Source: Mycolicibacterium mengxianglii (GTDB lineage: Bacteria > Actinomycetota > Actinomycetes > Mycobacteriales > Mycobacteriaceae). Taken from it: a stretch of 64,000 nt of DNA. Positions 45,939-54,758 of this stretch are shown piece by piece (position 1 is the stretch's first letter; every line of letters starts with the position of its first letter). The position numbers were made by a program, and so were the translations under genes. The notes under the pieces were generated by a model. The model was not told where the DNA came from, did no database searches, and worked only from the letters and a program-made list of their open reading frames with translations. The DNA is taken from contig NZ_CP065373.1 of the NCBI RefSeq assembly GCF_015710575.1, positions 2,728,001-2,792,000 of the forward strand, given 5' to 3'.

Positions 45939-46427
45939 ACGCGAATCCCTCTCATCGCCGAAGTCTGGACGATTGCCCCGGGGGCCTCGAAGCGGACCCC
46001 TTTGCATTACGTTGCATGTTACACCTAAGTGTGCTCTGGAGCGGCTGGCTCAGCGACCTGGCCTGTCGAACTCCGAGCTGGCACGGGGGGCCTCATCGTT
46101 GCGCTGTGCAGGCAACGACGGCGAATAGCTCGCGACGCGCGGCAGGCCAATCCCCGTTGCTCTACCCAGAAGTACTCGGATGGTGGTCAGTGCCAGCTGG
46201 TTTTTCGGCCGGGGCCGCGTCGACATCGAGGCGGCCATGCCGGCGCAGGGCAACGTCGCGGCGATGCCGGGAGCACGAGTGGCGGACGGTTCTTACGAAA
46301 TTGCCTGCTCTTGCACATCACGAGTGTCGTGGCCGCAGCAGTAGTACGGGTCCGCAGCGGTGACTGCCTCCCACTGGTCACTGGTCTAGGCGGAATAAAG
46401 CAGGCGCGCAATGTGCTTCGATCTTCG
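45939..46427. other. Intergenic region with a possible MarR trace
   Basis: 489 bp between the DUF3159 gene and the OYE gene. On the plus strand, 46024-46098 encodes PKCALERLAQRPGLSNSELA, which resembles the start of a MarR wing (LAxRPGLSNAELARRA) but is cut off after about 25 residues. No complete gene is seen in the rest. Confidence 0.35.
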
Positions 46428-47522
46428 ATGGCAATCGATGACTTCTTCACCCCGTTCTCCGTTGGTTCACTGACCATGCCGAACCGGTTCGCCATGGCGC
46501 CGATGACTCGCGAAGCGTCACCTGGTGGCATCCCCGGCGCCGACGTCGCTGAGTACTATCGGCGCCGCGCAGCAGGTGGGGTGGGGCTGATCATCACCGA
46601 AGGCGTTCGGTTGCCCGACCCGGCCGCAGGTTACCCAACCACTATCCCGACGCTGGCGGGCGACGACGTGCTCGCCGGCTGGGGCCGTGTCATCGACGCC
46701 GTTCACACAGAGGGTGGCACCGTCGCCGTGCAACTGTGGCATCAGGGCGTGCAACGCGATGAAGCCGACGGGGTGGTGCCGGTCGGCCCGTCCGGAGTCG
46801 ACGCGTTTGGCGCACCCAAGGGCCGGGCGCTGGCGACCGACGAGCTTCCGCAGCTGGCCCAGCTCTACGCCGATAGCGCTGCCACAGCACGCGAGATCGG
46901 TTTCGACGCTGTGGAATTGAACAGTTGCCATGGGTACCTGTTGGATCAGTTCCTTTGGGAGAGAACCAACCTGCGCAGCGATGGGTATGGGGGATCACTG
47001 GCCGCCCGGACGCGTTTCCCGGCCGAGGTGGTGGCGGCGGTGCGCGGCGCAGTCGGCCCGGACTATCCGATCATCTTCCGATTCTCACAGTGGAAGATCA
47101 CCGATTACACGGGGTCGATCGCCGACGACCCGACACAACTGCAGGAGCTTCTGGCTCCGTTCGTCGAGGCAGGCGTCGATGTCCTACACCCCTCGATGCG
47201 CCGGCACTACACGCCCGCGTTCCCTGACGCGGACCCCGAGCGCAGCCTCGCGGGATGGACGAAGAAAGTCACCGGTCTACCGGTCATCGCGGTGGGCTCC
47301 GTCGGGCTGGAGACGAGTTTTCGCAGTGAGGAGCACGGTCAGGTGATCCAGCCCGCCCCGCTCGACCGCTTGGTGAAGCAGTTCGAGGCGGGAGAGTTCG
47401 ACGTCGTAGCAGTCGGGCGGGCACTGCTCGCCGACCCAGGTTGGGTGCACCGGCTTCGTAATGGCGAGTTGGACGCCTTCACCGGCTACGACCCGGAAGT
47501 GGCGTTGTCGGCCCTGCGCTAA
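46428..47522 (+). CDS. Old-yellow-enzyme family NADH:flavin oxidoreductase
   Basis: 364 aa from ATG 46428 (MAIDDFFTPFSVGSLTMPNRF). FMN barrel features: NRFAMAPMTREAS, GGVGLIITEGVRL, VQLWHQGVQR, then FDAVELNSCHGYLLDQFLWERTNLRSD, which contains the HGYLLDQF motif, and the phosphate-binding PVIAVGSVGLE with VAVGRALLADPGW. The frame runs further upstream, but that part has no family similarity. Enone/nitro-olefin reductases of this type are common in xenobiotic metabolism. Confidence 0.92.
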   Translation: MAIDDFFTPFSVGSLTMPNRFAMAPMTREASPGGIPGADVAEYYRRRAAGGVGLIITEGVRLPDPAAGYPTTIPTLAGDDVLAGWGRVIDAVHTEGGTVAVQLWHQGVQRDEADGVVPVGPSGVDAFGAPKGRALATDELPQLAQLYADSAATAREIGFDAVELNSCHGYLLDQFLWERTNLRSDGYGGSLAARTRFPAEVVAAVRGAVGPDYPIIFRFSQWKITDYTGSIADDPTQLQELLAPFVEAGVDVLHPSMRRHYTPAFPDADPERSLAGWTKKVTGLPVIAVGSVGLETSFRSEEHGQVIQPAPLDRLVKQFEAGEFDVVAVGRALLADPGWVHRLRNGELDAFTGYDPEVALSALR

Positions 47523-47620
47523 CGGAACCGAACCCTTCGGCCGCTGGGGCGAAGTGTTCGGTGACGACGAGCAGGTAAAAAGTGTTCGATCACCCGCCGA
47601 GAACAGGAGATCCGACTGCT

Positions 47621-48430
47621 ATGTCCACTGAATCCAACCCCGCTGTCGCACAAGAAAACCCATGGGCTGACCCGGCCTTTGTGGCGACCTACGAACGCTG
47701 GGCAGACCCCACTACCGCAAAGCTGGCGCGCATCGCCCTCGACCGCACAGGCATCGGAACCGGATCAACGATTTTGGATGTCGGAACTGGAGTGGGCGCC
47801 CTCGCCGTGCCGGCGGCCAAGCGCGGGTGCTCGGTGCTGGCCTTCGACAGCTCGGCTCTCATGGTGGAACGTGCCAACCGCCGCCTGGTCGGCTTCTCCG
47901 ATGCTCGCGCGGTGCGGATGGACGCACGCGCCTTCGACCTTGACGACGACAGCTTCGACGCTGCCTTTGCCATCTTCAGTGTCACCCTCACGCCGCACCG
48001 GGACGCATCGCTACGGGAGATGGTGCGCGTCGTCCGTCCCGGTGGGATCGTCTGCGTGGTGAATTGGGCGACGCGGTACGGCAGTCCGGTTTTCGAGATC
48101 GTGGCCCAGGCTATGGAGCAGCTCGACCTGCTTCCCGCCGGTGGGATGGGTCATCAGATTGCCCGGCTTGACGAAGGCCAGCTGTCACGAGCGGGGTGCG
48201 TCGATGTGTCCGTCGAGCCGATCGGGTCTCCTGGAGAGCCTGGAGATATGCCCGCTCCGACCGAGTTTCTCAAGGAGTTGAGTCCACTCTTCCGGGTGGT
48301 ACCAGGCTTCTCGAATCTCCAGCCGGCTCAGCTTGGTGAGCTACGGTCGCTCATCGCCGACAAGGTGACCCACGGCGGACCTTGGAATCTCGAAGCCACC
48401 CTCGGAATTGGCCACGTTCCAGGAAACTAA
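47621..48430 (+). CDS. Class I SAM-dependent methyltransferase
   Basis: 269 aa from ATG 47621. Motif I ILDVGTGVGALAVPAAKRG, motif II VLAFDSSALMVERANRRL, motif III DDDSFDAAFAIFSVTLTPHRDA and motif IV VRVVRPGGIVCVVNWA define the UbiE-like fold. No substrate-specific domain. The gene follows the OYE by 98 bp and may share a promoter; product unknown. Confidence 0.9.
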   Translation: MSTESNPAVAQENPWADPAFVATYERWADPTTAKLARIALDRTGIGTGSTILDVGTGVGALAVPAAKRGCSVLAFDSSALMVERANRRLVGFSDARAVRMDARAFDLDDDSFDAAFAIFSVTLTPHRDASLREMVRVVRPGGIVCVVNWATRYGSPVFEIVAQAMEQLDLLPAGGMGHQIARLDEGQLSRAGCVDVSVEPIGSPGEPGDMPAPTEFLKELSPLFRVVPGFSNLQPAQLGELRSLIADKVTHGGPWNLEATLGIGHVPGN

Positions 48431-48514
48431 GGTTCACAGTTCAACGGACGATCCCTTGGCGGCATCCAGCAAGCGAAGACGTACGGGCGTTCTTCGCATC
48501 CGTGCGCTAGACAT

Positions 48515-48740
48515 GGCGTGGTGAGCTGCGCAACCCACTGCGCGACAAAGTGGGGGGTTATCCCCCACCAAAATGGGGGGGTTACTCCCGGCGACACTGG
48601 CACTTTTGAGCGGCATGCTGGTGGACATGACACTGGTTGGCGTGGTGAGCCGCGCAACCACTGCGCGACAAAACTGGGGGTTATCCCCTGTGACACTAAC
48701 GCTTTTGAGCAGCATGCTGGTGGTCATGACACTGGTTGGT
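48515..48740 (+). repeat. Tandemly duplicated leader with G-tract/C-tract hairpins
   Basis: Two imperfect copies, about 48515-48640 and 48639-48740, each start GGCGTGGTGAGC, run through ACTGCGCGACAAA, a G-tract/C-tract hairpin and a leader-peptide-like stretch ending ATGACACTGGTTGG. The first copy contains an extra ~25 bp with a second G-tract/C-tract. Hairpins are TGGGGG-gttat-CCCCCA (48552-48567 region), TGGGGGGG-TTAC-TCCC (48574-48589) and GGGGG-TTAT-CCCC (48676-48688). The second copy runs into the secretion signal of the next gene. Confidence 0.75.
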
Positions 48741-50063
48741 GCGCCTGCGGCGCGGGCCGACGGCATCGGATCGGACGCAGACGTGCACGTCGCCCAGTCG
48801 CTCGGCGGTCGCGAGTTGACGGTCACGATCCGGCGAGTCGGCCCGGTCCTCGGGCCTCTGCACGTCGACGTCGTCACACATCGCGGCGACGCTCCAGGCG
48901 CACTGCAACTCACTGCGTCGGCACCGGGAGCCACTACCAGCAGCGGTCAGGTGAAGCTCGGCGCGCCCGGCATGTATTCGGCGACACTGAACGTCGACAG
49001 GGCCGGGCCGTGGGAACTGGTTGTCGACGACGGCCACACCGCGGCGCGGATCCCCTTTCTGGTTCCCGCGCAGGTGATTCCGCCGTGGAAGAAAGCCAGT
49101 GACTACGGCTTCTTCACGGCGGGCGCGCTGCTGATCGTCTCGCTGGCAGCGACGTTGCGCGCGCGCCGCAACTGGATGGCGCTAGTCCCGGCGACCGGCA
49201 TGATCGTCGCGCTGACGGTGGCCGTCACCGGCGCGACGCTGTCGGCGCACTCCCCGCCGCCCCCGCAGCCCGGCCAGGACCTTGACCCCACCCTCGAGAA
49301 CATCCGTGATCCCTACGCGCGCGTTGCGGCCAATTCGCTCAATCCGGTGGACTATTCGCGGCCGCCGGTGAACATGGCGGTGTCCGCTGGCCAGTCCACG
49401 CTGCGTTTGAACCTCACCGACTCCTCCACCGGGCGACCCGCCGACGACCTGCTGATCCACCACGGCGCGCTGATCCATCTCATCGTCGTCTCACCTGCGG
49501 GCACCATGTCACACGTGCATCCTGTCCGTGTCGCGCCGGGACGGTACGAGGCGAAGTTCGACACCACCGAACGCGGGACTTACGCGATGACCGCCGAAAT
49601 CGCCAGGCGCGGAGGCGGATTACAACTGCTACGTGGCTCGGTCGACGGGCAATCCTTCGCCGTACCGCCGACCGCGGCGCCACCCTCGCAGGGCGAAATC
49701 ACCGCGACAGTCGCGCCGGCGGGCAGCCCGAGCACCATCCGGGCCAGGTTCGGCGACACCCCCGACCTGCAGCCGTGGCTCGGGATGGTCGGACACATGA
49801 TGGTCGTCGGACCACTACCCGACGGCCCCGACGTCGGCAAACACGCACTGACAGCACCGGTGTGGTCGCATGCGCATGCCATGGTGCCGCCCACAGTTGG
49901 CGCCGCAGGCGGGCAACCCGACGAATCGGTTGCCCGGTACGGCCCCGAGATCGATTTCACCTACTCGTTCGCACTGCCGGGCCGCTACAAGGTATGGGTG
50001 CAGACCGAACGCGACTACGCCATCCTCACCGCACCAACCGAAGTCGAGGTCCGCCAACCATGA
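48690..50063 (+). CDS. Secreted/anchored His-rich two-beta-domain protein, possibly copper-related
   Basis: 457 aa from GTG 48690, whose signal sequence LTLLSSMLVVMTLVGAPAARA fits; the frame stays open through the first leader copy to ATG 48573. After the signal come a CopC-like beta domain (residues about 25-130), two membrane segments (about 137-185, TAGALLIVSLAATLRARRN and ALVPATGMIVALTVAVTGA), and a C-terminal periplasmic domain with two His-rich motifs, IHHGALIHLIVVSP with MSHVHPVRV, and LGMVGHMMVVGP with WSHAHAMVP. Such H..H/HxHP repeats occur in YtkA-like and copper-linked periplasmic proteins. First gene of a four-gene overlapping unit. Confidence 0.72.
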   Translation: MTLTLLSSMLVVMTLVGAPAARADGIGSDADVHVAQSLGGRELTVTIRRVGPVLGPLHVDVVTHRGDAPGALQLTASAPGATTSSGQVKLGAPGMYSATLNVDRAGPWELVVDDGHTAARIPFLVPAQVIPPWKKASDYGFFTAGALLIVSLAATLRARRNWMALVPATGMIVALTVAVTGATLSAHSPPPPQPGQDLDPTLENIRDPYARVAANSLNPVDYSRPPVNMAVSAGQSTLRLNLTDSSTGRPADDLLIHHGALIHLIVVSPAGTMSHVHPVRVAPGRYEAKFDTTERGTYAMTAEIARRGGGLQLLRGSVDGQSFAVPPTAAPPSQGEITATVAPAGSPSTIRARFGDTPDLQPWLGMVGHMMVVGPLPDGPDVGKHALTAPVWSHAHAMVPPTVGAAGGQPDESVARYGPEIDFTYSFALPGRYKVWVQTERDYAILTAPTEVEVRQP

Positions 50064-50467
50064 GTCGCCAGCGCCTCGTCGTCATCGCCTCGATCGCCGC
50101 CGCCGTCGTCGGCGCCGGAATCTGGTTGCTGTGGCCGAAATCGATAGACGATAGCGCGGCCGCCGCGACGGCAGGACCGTACCGTGTGCAGCTGATCGGC
50201 GAGTCGCCGAAGGTCGGAATCAGCCCTGTCACCGTCGAGATAACCGGCAACGGGGGCCAGCCACCCACACCGGACTCGGTCACCTTCGAACCCGCGATGA
50301 CCCAAATGGGCCATGCCACAACACCTGCGGCCGCCGTGGCCCAAGGCGGCGGTCGGTACCGCGCCGACGTCGATCTGTCCATGGCCGGGCAATGGGACAT
50401 CACGGTCCGCATCGCCGCGAGCGGCCAAGTACAAGAAGCAGTTCTGAGCGTCACCACCAACGGCTAG
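50060..50467 (+). CDS. Small anchored FixH/YtkA-like domain protein
   Basis: 135 aa; start overlaps the preceding stop (ATGA). N-terminal anchor LVVIASIAAAVVGAGIWLLW, then one beta-sandwich domain: YRVQLIGESPKVGISPVTVEIT, TFEPAMTQMGHATTPAAAVA and YRADVDLSMAGQWDITVRIA. The Met/His pattern (MTQMGH) is that of FixH/YtkA-like and some copper-binding domains, where Met and His supply the metal site. Likely a periplasmic partner of the neighbouring membrane protein. Confidence 0.75.
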   Translation: MSRQRLVVIASIAAAVVGAGIWLLWPKSIDDSAAAATAGPYRVQLIGESPKVGISPVTVEITGNGGQPPTPDSVTFEPAMTQMGHATTPAAAVAQGGGRYRADVDLSMAGQWDITVRIAASGQVQEAVLSVTTNG

Positions 50468-50481
50468 AAAGGCACACCGAC

Positions 50482-51594
50482 ATGACGAGTGCGGATTCGC
50501 GCGGCAAGTTACCGGCGTTTGTCATGCTCGCAGGCACCCTGATCTCGCTGTCGGGGTTGACCTGGGACATCGACTGGCACCTTGACGTCGGGCCGGACAG
50601 CTTCTTCACGCTGCCGCACCTGTTCATCTACGCCGGCGGCGCGATCGCCGGGTTGACCAGCTTGGTGATGGTGGTGCGGGCCACCGCCGCACAGCGCAAT
50701 GGCCACGATCCCGATCCGACCATCGGCGGTCGCGCGTTCAAGGTGCTCGGCGTATTCGCGGCGCCGATCGGCTATCTGGCCAGCGGCATCGGCGCGGCCA
50801 CGTTCCTGCTGTATGGGCTATGGGACGAATGGTGGCACGGCCTGTACGGATTCGACGTGACCGTCGCGTCGCCGCCACACCAAGGTTGGCTGACGTCGAT
50901 CTGCGTCACCATGATCGGCACCGCGATCGTCTTCGCCGCGGCCCGCGAACACCGTTGGGGCCGTTGGGGATTCATGGGCGCGATCGCGGCTTTCGGGCAA
51001 TACGCCTCGATCCAGAGCGGCGCGCTGGCAGACCTCAACCTGAGCGCGACCATCGATTGGCCCACCCTGACCTGGCTGGCCATTCCGCTCGTCTGCGTGC
51101 TGCTCGGATCTCAAGTCGTGCCGCGCGGCGGAGCCATCGGCACCGGCCTTCTCACACTGGTGCTGAGCCTGGCGACCTGGTCGTTCGCCAGCTGGGCGGT
51201 CGGCTGGTATGCCGACCTGCAGCACTTGGCGCTCCGCGACTTCGTCGAGTTGGGCTTCCCCATCGACATGGTGCTGATCCCAGCAATCGTTTTCGTGTTC
51301 GGCGTCGTCGTCGAGCTCCTGCTGCGATGGAGAGGCGCGAGCGCCTGGCTGCTGGCCGGTTCCGGCGCGGCAGGTGTGATCGCGATCACCTGGCTGCTCA
51401 GCTCAATGGGATCCGAGGGCGTCGACCTGGGTGATGAGGCCGGCGGCGGACACGTGGGCAGCATCCTGCTGACGTGCGTCGTCGGGGGGCTGCTCGCGGG
51501 GGTGCTCGGCGGCGCGACGTGGCGACTCGGCCAGGCACTGCGTGCATCGAACGTAACACCTGCCGTCAGTGTGACCGTCGGTGGCACGGCATGA
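50482..51594 (+). CDS. Polytopic membrane protein with paired conserved-looking histidines
   Basis: 370 aa from ATG 50482 with GAAAGG upstream; about nine hydrophobic segments. Near the N-terminus there is W32-H33-x-D-x-G-x-D-S-F-F-x-x-P-H46-x-x-I-Y, later W117-W118-H119-G-L-Y-G and P-P-H133-Q-G, plus DLQHLALRDF. Histidines at membrane edges spaced like metal or heme ligands suggest a membrane-bound redox or metal protein rather than a simple transporter. I recognise no named family. The gene follows the FixH/YtkA-like gene by 14 bp and overlaps the next gene by ATGA. Confidence 0.72.
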   Translation: MTSADSRGKLPAFVMLAGTLISLSGLTWDIDWHLDVGPDSFFTLPHLFIYAGGAIAGLTSLVMVVRATAAQRNGHDPDPTIGGRAFKVLGVFAAPIGYLASGIGAATFLLYGLWDEWWHGLYGFDVTVASPPHQGWLTSICVTMIGTAIVFAAAREHRWGRWGFMGAIAAFGQYASIQSGALADLNLSATIDWPTLTWLAIPLVCVLLGSQVVPRGGAIGTGLLTLVLSLATWSFASWAVGWYADLQHLALRDFVELGFPIDMVLIPAIVFVFGVVVELLLRWRGASAWLLAGSGAAGVIAITWLLSSMGSEGVDLGDEAGGGHVGSILLTCVVGGLLAGVLGGATWRLGQALRASNVTPAVSVTVGGTA

Positions 51595-52139
51595 CCATCC
51601 ACAACAGGTTGCGGGCGATGATCGCGATGCTGTGCGCCGTTGCCACGCTGTCGATCGGCGTGGCACCGGCCGCGGTCGCCGATCCGCTGGACTACGTGGT
51701 GCACACCGAGCACGTCCAGGTGGGCCCCTACCCGGTGACGGTCGGGTTCACCGTGTGGCCGCTGCGTGCCATGCAGTCGTTGGATTTCACGTTCGAACCG
51801 GACGGCGGAATCACAGGCAAGTCCGGCACCATCACCGCGATCGCTCCCGATGGCCGGGAGGAGGCGGATCTACTGTCCCGGCATCCCCGCAACCGCGAAG
51901 TGTGGGGCCTCGACGTCGAGTCGCTCAACTCCTCGGGGACGTGGACGCTGCGGTTCACGATCGACGGTCCGCAGGGCGAAGGCACCGGCGACCTGGCCGT
52001 CGACGTGCTCAAACAGCCAGGACCCCCGCTGGCGCTGAGCTGGCTCCTCGGACTCACCCCGCTGGCGCTGACTTTGGTGTTCTTCGCAGTGGTCTGGATA
52101 CGCACCGGCCCGCGCAGGAACGTCGACACGAGTTCCTAG
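51591..52139 (+). CDS. Secreted beta-domain protein with C-terminal anchor
   Basis: 182 aa. Signal peptide AMIAMLCAVATLSIGVAPAAVA, a single beta domain (DPLDYVVHTEHVQVGPYPVTVGFTVWPLRAMQSLDFTFEPD then GTWTLRFTIDGPQGEGTGDLAVDV) and a C-terminal membrane helix LLGLTPLALTLVFFAVVWIRT. Fold resembles FixH/CopC-like beta sandwiches, but His and Met are few here. Last gene of the four-gene unit; start overlaps the membrane-protein stop. Confidence 0.72.
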   Translation: MTIHNRLRAMIAMLCAVATLSIGVAPAAVADPLDYVVHTEHVQVGPYPVTVGFTVWPLRAMQSLDFTFEPDGGITGKSGTITAIAPDGREEADLLSRHPRNREVWGLDVESLNSSGTWTLRFTIDGPQGEGTGDLAVDVLKQPGPPLALSWLLGLTPLALTLVFFAVVWIRTGPRRNVDTSS

Positions 52140-52306: not shown

Positions 52307-52579
52307 CTAGGGTTGTCGCAACACCGACGGACCCGGTGAGGCTAGCGGGACGGCGAATAGATCGGCGGGACAACGGTCTTGTAGGACCATGCGGCGACGG
52401 TTGTTGAGTTCGCGCTCGACCGCCCTCAAGTGCCTCAGCGAATGATTGGCGAGGGTGACGCCCTTGGGGAAATAGTCGCGTAGCAGCCCGTTGGTGTTCT
52501 CGTTGCTGCCGCGTTGCCAGGGTGATCGGGAGTGCAGCGATTCCAGTAGCGCGAGCACGCGCGCGGTGGGCCGCACCAT
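52307..52579 (-). mobile_element. IS30-family transposase remnant fused to a regulator N-terminus
   Basis: The minus strand from about 52525 encodes SPWQRGSNENTNGLLRDYFP, HLRAVERELNNRRRMVLQDR and CPADLFAVPLASPG, the C-terminal end of IS30 transposases; downstream sequence (GTGTTGCGACAACCC) looks like the usual end of such an element. The preceding residues MVRPTARVLALLESLHSR match the first residues of WYL/YafY-type regulators (RPTARVLALLELLQ). So an IS30 copy inserted into, or recombined with, a WYL regulator gene, leaving only both ends. Confidence 0.78.
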
Positions 52580-52654: not shown

Positions 52655-53044
52655 TCAGGCTTTCAGGGTCGGGGTCAGCGCCGCAGCGAGGATCTTCGCG
52701 TCGCGGGTGGCGAGGGTGAGGTTGCGGCGCAGCGCTTGGGCAACGATCACCCGGTCGAACGGATCCCCGTGTTCCCAGGGCAATCGCCCGGCAAGGATGG
52801 CGTCGCCGGAGTCGATCGGTAGGTCATCGACGCGCATGGATTCCAGCTGGCTGGGCCAGATCGCCAACAGCGTTGCGCCGTCGAATCGGCCGAGCCGCGT
52901 TTTGACGGCGATCTCCCAGGCTGACGCGGCGCTGACCCAAACAGATGTTGTGGGATCGGCCAGGTGTGCGAGCGCTTCGGGATCGAGGGTGGTCGGCTCC
53001 CTGAGCAGCCACAGCAGGGTGTGGGTGTCCAAGAGAATGTTCAC
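52655..53044 (-). CDS. PIN-domain toxin (VapC-like)
   Basis: 129 aa ribonuclease-type toxin. PIN motif: first Asp in ILLDTHTLLWLL, Glu in SAASAWEIAVK, Asp in GDPFDRVIVAQAL and the final TRDAKI. This is the VapC group with N-terminal MxxLLDTHxxLW that pairs with Phd-type antitoxins. The gene starts inside the antitoxin stop (4-nt overlap), the usual order antitoxin-toxin. Confidence 0.93.
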   Translation of the reverse strand: MNILLDTHTLLWLLREPTTLDPEALAHLADPTTSVWVSAASAWEIAVKTRLGRFDGATLLAIWPSQLESMRVDDLPIDSGDAILAGRLPWEHGDPFDRVIVAQALRRNLTLATRDAKILAAALTPTLKA

Positions 53045-53286
53045 GACGACTCGTCGCCCTCCCAGCGTGCCAGCTCGGTATCTGGTAGCGGCTCGTCGAA
53101 GTCCTTGGGAATGGACAGGTTCGGCATTTGGCCAAACTGCCGAGGGGTTGGGTTCGCGGGCACCAGGCGTGCGACATCGCGACCGTGGTTGGTAATGATC
53201 ACCGTCTTTCCGGTGCGCTCGACGTCGGCGAGCAGCGCGTTGAGTCGGTTCTTGGCGTCGGTGCTGGAAACCTTCTCCACGGTCAT
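53041..53286 (-). CDS. Phd/YefM-type antitoxin (VapB-like)
   Basis: 81 aa from ATG 53286. MTVEKVSSTDAKNRLNALLADVERTGKTVIITNHGRDVARLVP is the Phd/YefM DNA-binding dimer; the C-terminal tail DFDEPLPDTELARWEGD would bind the PIN toxin. It overlaps vapC by 4 nt. The frame open to 53445 upstream lacks protein similarity and is rejected. Expected to repress its own operon. Confidence 0.92.
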   Translation of the reverse strand: MTVEKVSSTDAKNRLNALLADVERTGKTVIITNHGRDVARLVPANPTPRQFGQMPNLSIPKDFDEPLPDTELARWEGDESS

Positions 53287-53735
53287 ACGGACCAACGTAC
53301 CGCCATTCGCGCTGTTCGCGCTAGCTGCAATAGCTCGATTCGGGGTTTGCGGGCAGTTGTGCGGGTTGTCGGTGGTCGCAGCGGCAAGGACCCAACGAGT
53401 GACGATGAGACGACGCCGCCGCGGTTTGTCTCGATGAAGTTGCACTTCGGTAGTGGCGGCATGGCCCGAGTGGGACGGATACGGGGGAGGAGCCGAACCA
53501 CGCGAAGCACGTCGCGACAGTCAGTGCGGCGACGAAGGTTCCTCGATCTGCCTGGTCGCCGCGGCGCGCGTGCATCAGCGGCCCGAGAGAATGCCGCCTT
53601 ACGGGCTACCCGCCGACTGCACCCGGCCGACAACTCAGGGCCCGGGGCGGGAGGTGATGAGCGTTGGGGTGCACGGGCAGCATACGGCGTGCTCCGGTGG
53701 GGAATTCATCCTTGCCGCAGCTGGTTGCTGCGCAC
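53287..53735. other. Intergenic region without recognisable gene
   Basis: 449 bp between the vapBC promoter side and the luciferase-like gene. Some frames are open, but all translations are Arg/Ala-rich without family features. Probably promoter region plus decayed sequence. Confidence 0.4.
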
Positions 53736-54758
53736 GTGAAGAACATCGGCTTCCTGTCGTTCGGGCACTGGTCGGACAGTCCGCACTCGCGCGTGCGGTC
53801 CGCGGCGGACGCCCTGCTGCAGTCGGTCGAACTCGCCGTCGCCGCGGAGGAGATCGGTGCTGACGGTGCGTACTTTCGTGTACACCACTTCGCCCAGCAG
53901 CTCGGCTCGCCGTTTCCGCTGCTGTCCGCGGCGGCTGCCCGCACCCACCGCATCGAGCTCGGAACCGGCATCATCGACATGCGCTATGAGAACCCGCTCT
54001 ACATGGCGGAAGACGCGGGTGCGGCGGACCTGATCTCGGGTGGCCGGCTCCAGCTGGGCATCAGCCGCGGATCGCCCGAGCAGGTGATAGAGGGATACCG
54101 CTACTTCGGTTACGCGCCCAGCGCGGACGACGTCGATGGCGGGGCGATGGCACGCGAACACACGCGGCTGTTTCTTGATGTGCTGAAGGGGCAGGGCTTT
54201 GCACAGCCCAACCCGCGCCCGATGTTTCCCAACCCGCCGGGCTTGCTGAGGATCGAGCCGCACTCTCCGGGGCTGCGCGAGCGGATCTGGTGGGGCGCGG
54301 GCAGCCGCGCCACCGCCGAGTGGGCGGCGCAGCAGGGCATGAACCTGATGAGTTCGACGCTGCTGAGCGAAGACACGGGCGTGCCTTTCCATCAATTGCA
54401 GGCTGAGCAGATCCAGCGCTTCCGCGATGTCTGGAAGGCCGCCGGTCACGAACGCAAGCCGCGAGTCTCGGTGAGCCGCAGCATCTTTCCAATCGTCAAC
54501 GACCTGGACAAGCAGCTGTTCTGGCACAACCGGGACAGCACCGACCAAGTCGGCTTTCTCGACGGCGGTGTTGCGCGGTTCGGCAAGACCTACGCGGGGG
54601 AGCCTGACAAGCTCATTGCGCAGCTCGCGGAGGACGAATCCGTCGCCGCGGCCGACACCCTGCTGATCACAGTCCCCAACCAGCTCGGCGTCGACTACAA
54701 CGCGCACGTGATCGAGAGCCTGCTGACGCATGTCGCGCCGGAGTTGGCTTGGCGGTGA
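53736..54758 (+). CDS. Luciferase-like (LLM) flavin-dependent monooxygenase
   Basis: 340 aa from GTG 53736 (VKNIGFLSFGHWSDSPHSRVRS). Motifs: EEIGADGAYFRVHHFAQQLGSPFPLL, IELGTGIIDMRYENPLYMAEDAGAADLIS, GGRLQLGISRGSPEQVIEGYRYFG and IWWGAGSRATAEWAAQQGMNLMSST. The VHHFA motif puts the catalytic His-like residue in the luciferase-type active site. It stands alone, so its flavin reductase must be encoded elsewhere. Substrate unknown. Confidence 0.92.
   Translation: MKNIGFLSFGHWSDSPHSRVRSAADALLQSVELAVAAEEIGADGAYFRVHHFAQQLGSPFPLLSAAAARTHRIELGTGIIDMRYENPLYMAEDAGAADLISGGRLQLGISRGSPEQVIEGYRYFGYAPSADDVDGGAMAREHTRLFLDVLKGQGFAQPNPRPMFPNPPGLLRIEPHSPGLRERIWWGAGSRATAEWAAQQGMNLMSSTLLSEDTGVPFHQLQAEQIQRFRDVWKAAGHERKPRVSVSRSIFPIVNDLDKQLFWHNRDSTDQVGFLDGGVARFGKTYAGEPDKLIAQLAEDESVAAADTLLITVPNQLGVDYNAHVIESLLTHVAPELAWR

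Follow-up and report, generated by a model that had tools for sequence, protein, structure and literature searches.

Layout and conservation of the unit

The DNA considered here, called the window, is a stretch of 64,000 nucleotides from the 5.96-Mb chromosome of Mycolicibacterium mengxianglii. It contains, between positions 48690 and 52139, four plus-strand genes designated g1 to g4, the third of which encodes a membrane protein resembling PmoC, a copper-binding subunit of the monooxygenases that act on methane and ammonia. Coordinates read directly from the sequence revealed two 4-bp overlaps and one 14-bp gap: the g1 stop at 50063 overlaps the g2 start at 50060, g2 ends at 50467 and g3 begins at 50482, and the end of g3 at 51594 overlaps the start of g4 at 51591, which runs to 52139. 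A repeat search of the region 5′ of g1 identified tandem direct repeats of 64 nt (86%), 31 nt (90%) and 22 nt (95%) at spacings of 99-124. A previous sequence-only reading had described the genes as coupled by overlaps or a 14-bp gap and endowed with their own duplicated leader, and both descriptions were borne out. Comparison with five near relatives aligned the leader in L012, L014, L016 and L017, but not in L013. The start of g1 may be 48573 (ATG), 48690 (GTG) or slightly further in; alignments with homologues begin at a short signal-peptide-like stretch. The features are as follows.

48514..48640, plus strand: leader copy 1 of the direct repeat, containing the palindrome GTGGGGGGTTATCCCCCAC at 48550-48568 (repeat search, alignment of relatives)
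48638..48739, plus strand: leader copy 2, containing GGGGGTTATCCCC at 48676-48688 and the beginning of the signal-peptide-like stretch of g1
48690..50063, plus strand: g1, three beta domains and two membrane helices (open reading frame, AlphaFold2 model, conservation)
50060..50467, plus strand: g2, membrane-anchored YtkA-like domain (Pfam, PDB profile match, conservation)
50482..51594, plus strand: g3, PmoC-like membrane protein of 370 amino acids (AlphaFold2 model, profile relationships)
50566..50619, plus strand: g3 triad 1, CuC-like, D29-x3-H33-x12-H46, from the end of helix 1 to the start of helix 2
50824..50880, plus strand: g3 triad 2, CuD-like, D115-x3-H119-x13-H133, with Asp replacing Asn, from the end of helix 3 to the start of helix 4
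51591..52139, plus strand: g4, exported-looking protein with a hydrophobic C-terminal stretch and no Pfam match

Related loci were sought by scanning one genome per species. This confirmed 199 stretches, the best 80 of which were kept and the other 119 left out. Iterated profiles showed 79 of the 80 loci to hold all four genes in the order g1-g2-g3-g4 and on the same strand; in the exception, L070, g1 is absent as the contig begins inside the unit, and in L018 g1 is cut. The four genes thus co-occur rather than being scattered, which answers the neighbourhood check proposed with the sequence-only reading. Together with the 353 homologous proteins found, these complete loci rule out chance open reading frames (ORFs). 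(Three homologue searches, with about 8,000 candidates scored in each, gave 353, 615 and 5,281 matches, and 120 of each were listed.) Among the best 80 of 199 loci, the genera represented are Mycolicibacterium, Amycolatopsis, Lentzea, Kibdelosporangium, Actinokineospora, Allokutzneria, Crossiella, Umezawaea, Sphaerisporangium and Nonomuraea, and the nearest named relative of g3 is from Mycobacterium neglectum (95%). The g3 type is patchy within the order, with a strong match (E<1e-129) in 12 of 200 sampled genomes and a weak one in 5 more; within the genus, 2 of 41 genomes gave a close match. One locus recorded as Rhodococcus rhodnii (L033) has a unit layout resembling that of Kibdelosporangium units and possibly comes from a mislabelled assembly. 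A search of titles and abstract openings of open-licence papers found no description of the four-gene unit and no paper treating PmoC and YtkA together.

The g3 protein carries two PmoC-type triads

Family profile searches gave g3 neither a Pfam nor an NCBIfam name. Conservation was counted with one row per locus, window included (81 rows, many of them closely related). Eight g3 residues, D29, H33, D39, H46, D115, H119, D125 and H133, are invariant in all 81 rows; the four histidines among them are those that the sequence-only reading had singled out and expected to find conserved. The exact double motif D-x3-H-x12-H plus D-x3-H-x13-H is likewise present in every row, and is rare elsewhere (2 of 13,011 non-g3 six-frame ORFs; 1 of 16,200 shuffles). 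The AlphaFold2 model of g3 has 10 helices (predicted local distance difference test, pLDDT, 82; predicted template modelling score, pTM, 0.84). In each triad of the model, D-x3-H lies at the end of one helix and the last His at the start of the next. With loops set by hand from this model, lysines plus arginines average 1.7 on the triad side versus 8.1 on the opposite side, or 5.2 excluding termini, the bias being seen in 19 of 19 rows. Since positive residues mark the inner side, both triads should face outside, the side on which g1, g2 and g4 are expected.

The letters of PmoC chain 1yew_C read D156-x3-H160-x12-H173 and N227-x3-H231-x13-H245, with the spacings of g3 triads 1 and 2; excerpts of PMC12576850 and PMC11194816 name these residues as the ligands of the PmoC copper sites CuC and CuD. 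PmoC/AmoC (PF04896) and g3 therefore share two triads, D-x3-H-x12-H and then N/D-x3-H-x13-H, in the same order. They also share a Trp directly before the first His and a D-x2-F-T-x2-H stretch running into the last His of triad 1. The CuC triad characteristic of subunit C, Asp-x3-His-x12-His, and the CuD positions at x3/x13 spacing were each found in 81 of 81 g3 rows.

Both triads also occur in the core of a group of unnamed actinobacterial fusion proteins of about 480-650 amino acids, here referred to by two members, P0124 (a relative encoded by a different genome of this genus) and P0125. These proteins differ from g3 in a first spacing of 12, 13 or 14 and, in the full-length members examined, in a beta-type domain behind the membrane part. 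The second spacing was x13 in all 25 proteins tested by pattern, 13 of them g3-type; a separate tally of 23 out of 23 is not a count of spacings, its ORFs having been picked by a pattern already containing x13. A profile from the 81 g3 orthologues matched 19 ORFs of such relatives at E<=0.01 (best 4.4e-15), and hhalign aligned the g3 family with the P0124-type family (profile A2) over 144 columns, triads on triads (97.9%, E 3.8e-13).

Profile members were chosen by hand for spread (A1, 19; A2, 21; A4, 21; A5 and A6, 18; A8, 21); A3 was built from 5 of 77 PmoC ORFs. Profile A8, made of 21 cores (4 g3-type plus actinobacterial relatives), was searched against 177,635 PDB sequences. All 14 matches at E<=10 were AmoC/PmoC (best E 0.0057). 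They were the same 14 sequences found by a PmoC query, and ligands fell on ligands in the 3 alignments listed. Among 6,694 ORFs of a local database, 79 of them PmoC, 78 of the top 79 matches were these PmoC; the best other match was a further PmoC outside the pattern used for labelling. In hhalign, A8 as a whole matched PmoC with a probability of 45.7% (P 2.1e-4, 94 columns), and its hairpin 1 alone matched the CuC stretch at 86% (E 5.1e-6). Conversely, Pfam AmoC matched 3 of the 21 A8 cores (best 1.2e-5) and, at E<=1, 15 of 21 A2 members (best 2e-4); P0124 itself scored 18 bits, below the 26.7-bit cut-off. The A2 profile gave 4 PDB matches at E<=10, all AmoC/PmoC. Taken together, these sequence comparisons make it likely, not proven, that g3 is related to PmoC.

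The partner proteins

The g2 product scored 49.9 bits against Pfam YtkA (PF13115), over the cut-off of 25.9, and its profile matched PDB entry 9ll2, 'Copper resistance protein', with an E-value of 8.2e-8. It carries a Met/His motif in which H85, M108 and W112 are conserved in 81 of 81 rows and M80 and M83 in 80. By sequence, g2 is a member of a family with a copper-protein structure; what sets it apart from YtkA-like proteins and 9ll2 is its PmoC-like membrane neighbour at the loci examined.

The g1 product was modelled by AlphaFold2 over 457 residues (pLDDT 76, pTM 0.71) as a beta domain, membrane helices 132-157 and 162-186, and two further beta domains. H263, H275, H277, H369, H394 and H396 are conserved in 80 of 80 rows and M398 in 79. 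Its score against YtkA (22.1 bits) falls under the cut-off. The modelled succession of beta domain, two membrane helices and beta domain is the order of PmoB/AmoB as described in an excerpt of PMC12576850, from which g1 differs by its third beta domain and the lack of a sequence match. The fold matches listed for g1 are generic immunoglobulin-like sandwiches, so that neither sequence nor fold supports kinship with PmoB. As to g4, H38, E40, H98 and D108 are conserved in 81 of 81 rows; no Pfam family matched and further searches gave no useful match.

Thus, of the FixH/YtkA/CopC-like character previously ascribed to the partners, the YtkA part stands for g2, whereas g1 stays under the cut-off, g4 has no match and CopC is unmatched in all four proteins. 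A plain CopC/CopD set was rejected, since none of the four proteins has a listed Pfam match to CopC or CopD at E<=10 (the search filters drop most matches above about 0.1). A transporter was likewise rejected, with no transporter family matching the unit proteins.

Relation to PmoC and possible function

Several observations weigh against kinship with PmoC. When the six ligand columns of A8 were masked the PmoC match was lost (best PmoC E 5.2, rank 23), and masking triad 1 alone nearly abolished it (E 0.97, rank 5), so that most of the case for shared ancestry comes from the ligand positions. Hairpin 2 alone did not match the CuD stretch (0.24% in hhalign). The g3-type rows by themselves reached no PmoC in the PDB and, locally, only at E 2.7; Pfam AmoC matched none of 19 g3-type members at E<=10; and direct hhalign comparison of the g3 and PmoC families gave 3.1% with an alignment off the sites. 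A reversed A8 profile still drew 33 PmoC into its top 79, weakly (best E 2.4). Foldseek found no significant match for the g3 model, and PmoC/AmoC chain C is not among the fold-comparison matches listed. The CuD site also differs. According to an excerpt of PMC11194816, PmoC has an Asn ligand there and a cage of Phe177, Phe240 and Phe248; g3 has Asp115 in 81 of 81 rows and, at the corresponding offsets read by hand, Tyr50, Val128 and Trp136. Because of these replacements the chemistry of g3 may differ from that of PmoC. Moreover, g3 has 370 residues and about 10 modelled helices compared with 236-289 residues in PmoC/AmoC PDB chains, no pmoA or pmoB adjoins it, and its neighbour g2 is YtkA-like. 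PmoA (PF02461) and PmoB (PF04744) gave no match in the M. mengxianglii genome, where control genomes gave none either, nor did these families match any of the four unit genes. Because they were not found, the unit is not classed as a methane-monooxygenase-type enzyme, and membership in the copper membrane monooxygenases is not claimed.

The loss of the match on masking, the silence of hairpin 2 and the fold comparisons would fit a convergent metal protein, in which two D-x3-H...H hairpins arose separately and possibly hold zinc or another metal. We consider this unlikely. The PDB matches of A8 were AmoC/PmoC without exception, PmoC stayed first when 11 conserved non-ligand positions (E 0.0025) or triad 2 (E 0.0035) were masked, g3 follows PmoC in both spacings and in the order of its triads, and g2 is of a copper type. 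Far less probable still is a heme protein, although the four invariant histidines at the helix ends of g3 could be read as paired axial ligands. Copper is, in our judgement from the sequences, probably the metal, and it seems only slightly less probable that g1, g2 and g4 serve g3. The existing proposal of a periplasmic metal (probably copper) delivery set around one membrane metallo-enzyme or heme protein is both supported and sharpened.

What such a set would do is more evenly balanced. CopC/CopD or YtkA-like proteins are thought to handle copper, and the unit could do the same without catalysis: g1, g2 and g4 would bind copper outside the membrane, with g3 as acceptor, store or conduit to uptake or to a cuproenzyme. 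Against this possibility, which has perhaps one chance in three, stand the absence of CopC/CopD or transporter families among the four proteins and the presence of two strictly kept triads in PmoC spacing, which would exceed the needs of a conduit. Copper handling by the whole set remains almost as likely as oxygen activation; we put oxygen chemistry in preference to copper handling at a little under even. The reading that we favour, at about even chances, is that the four genes specify a set of extracytoplasmic copper proteins around the PmoC-like g3. Copper would bind to g1, to the Met/His site of g2 and to g4 outside the membrane; these would bring copper and/or electrons to g3, whose triads would each bind one copper at the outer membrane face. 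With this copper g3 would activate oxygen to act on a substrate that is small or resembles a lipid, in the way proposed for PmoC at its CuD site. A PmoC-type gene similarly lies beside those of periplasmic copper proteins in the extended pmo operons presented in an excerpt of PMC6189053, which include CopC, CopD, PCuAC and PmoD; they differ in also holding pmoA and pmoB and in partner families that are not those of the unit.

For some three decades there has been debate over which copper site of methane monooxygenase is the active one (PMC12576850, in excerpt); some now assign activity to CuD in PmoC (PMC11194816, in excerpt). Amycolatopsis, Lentzea and Mycolicibacterium can be cultivated, and a PmoC-like protein that has both triads but no PmoA/PmoB would offer in them a simpler setting in which to test both sites. 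It would also provide an outgroup for studying how an enzyme with a central place in carbon and nitrogen cycling arose, and a first label for the very large set of unnamed P0125 relatives.

An actinobacterial superfamily with a possible repeated hairpin

The P0125 search gave its 5,281 relatives at E<=0.001 among 8,000 scored; the names among the 120 matches listed are hypothetical, uncharacterized or transmembrane protein. The P0124 family was matched in 30 of 296 genomes of the phylum. The M. mengxianglii genome itself gave two P0124-family matches: g3 (8.6e-9) and, at G000:C1:232308-232748, another PmoC-like protein in a frame of 622 aa (5.6e-11). Flanks of P0124/P0125 genes, mostly covering only 1.5 kb, contained no g1 or g4 relatives and one weak g2 match.

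Aligned by hhalign, one half of the superfamily core matches the other with a score of 59.7 (E 1.4e-13); 100 column shuffles reached at most 15.5. Should the repeat hold up, both copper sites of PmoC may derive from a single duplicated hairpin. Against a duplication, g3-type rows taken by themselves show no significant internal repeat, 6 of 100 shuffles scoring as high, and none was seen in PmoC alone; the missing direct match of hairpin 2 to the CuD stretch speaks in the same sense. We advance only tentatively, and as rather doubtful, the idea that the unit represents a new class of copper membrane oxygenase of common soil actinobacteria, with a PmoC-like catalytic core, separate copper-loading proteins in place of PmoA/PmoB, and membership in a large superfamily with a duplicated copper hairpin from which CuC and CuD would both descend.

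In the P0124 family (L007:1444-2901), residues 329-337, A-x-A-H-D-P-G-x-G, precede the beta domain and are invariant in 21 aligned members. If P0124 were cut there as a signal peptide is, the mature domain would begin with His. Mature PmoB and CopC begin with His.

Sequences upstream of the unit

Enough upstream DNA for a palindrome count was available at 78 of the 80 loci; the pattern was chosen after inspection of the sequences. Of 63 non-mycobacterial loci, 57 have TCCCC-N4-8-GGGGA in the 330 bp preceding g1, versus 6 of 3,159 background windows from the same loci. None of the 15 mycobacterial loci has it (one does if the inverted form is allowed); some of them have GGGG-TTA-CCCC palindromes upstream of g1, as do both leader copies in the window. 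Four Lentzea genomes, one of them with two units, contain 5 sites of the strict palindrome, one per unit and only there. Lentzea sp. NEAU-D7 carries two copies of the unit (L048 and L050), with a palindrome at each. Of 64 non-mycobacterial loci, 36 have a histidine kinase and a response regulator nearby; in each of the 36 the regulator frame terminates ahead of the g1 stop, and the regulators read as NarL/LuxR type. Outside mycobacteria the unit is thus probably switched via one operator and, in many cases, a two-component system.

Neighbouring genes

Comparison of flanks across the loci found no ORF cluster adjoining the unit and common to most of them. In the window, a short minus-strand ORF at 52307-52579, without a Pfam match, looks like the C-terminus of an IS30-type transposase, which gives the downstream flank a rearranged appearance. 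A PIN-domain protein with a Phd/YefM antitoxin is encoded shortly after the unit, at 52655-53445 on the minus strand. A flavin mononucleotide (FMN) oxidoreductase and a methyltransferase are encoded upstream (46404-48430, plus strand), and a luciferase-like monooxygenase downstream (53697-54758, plus strand).

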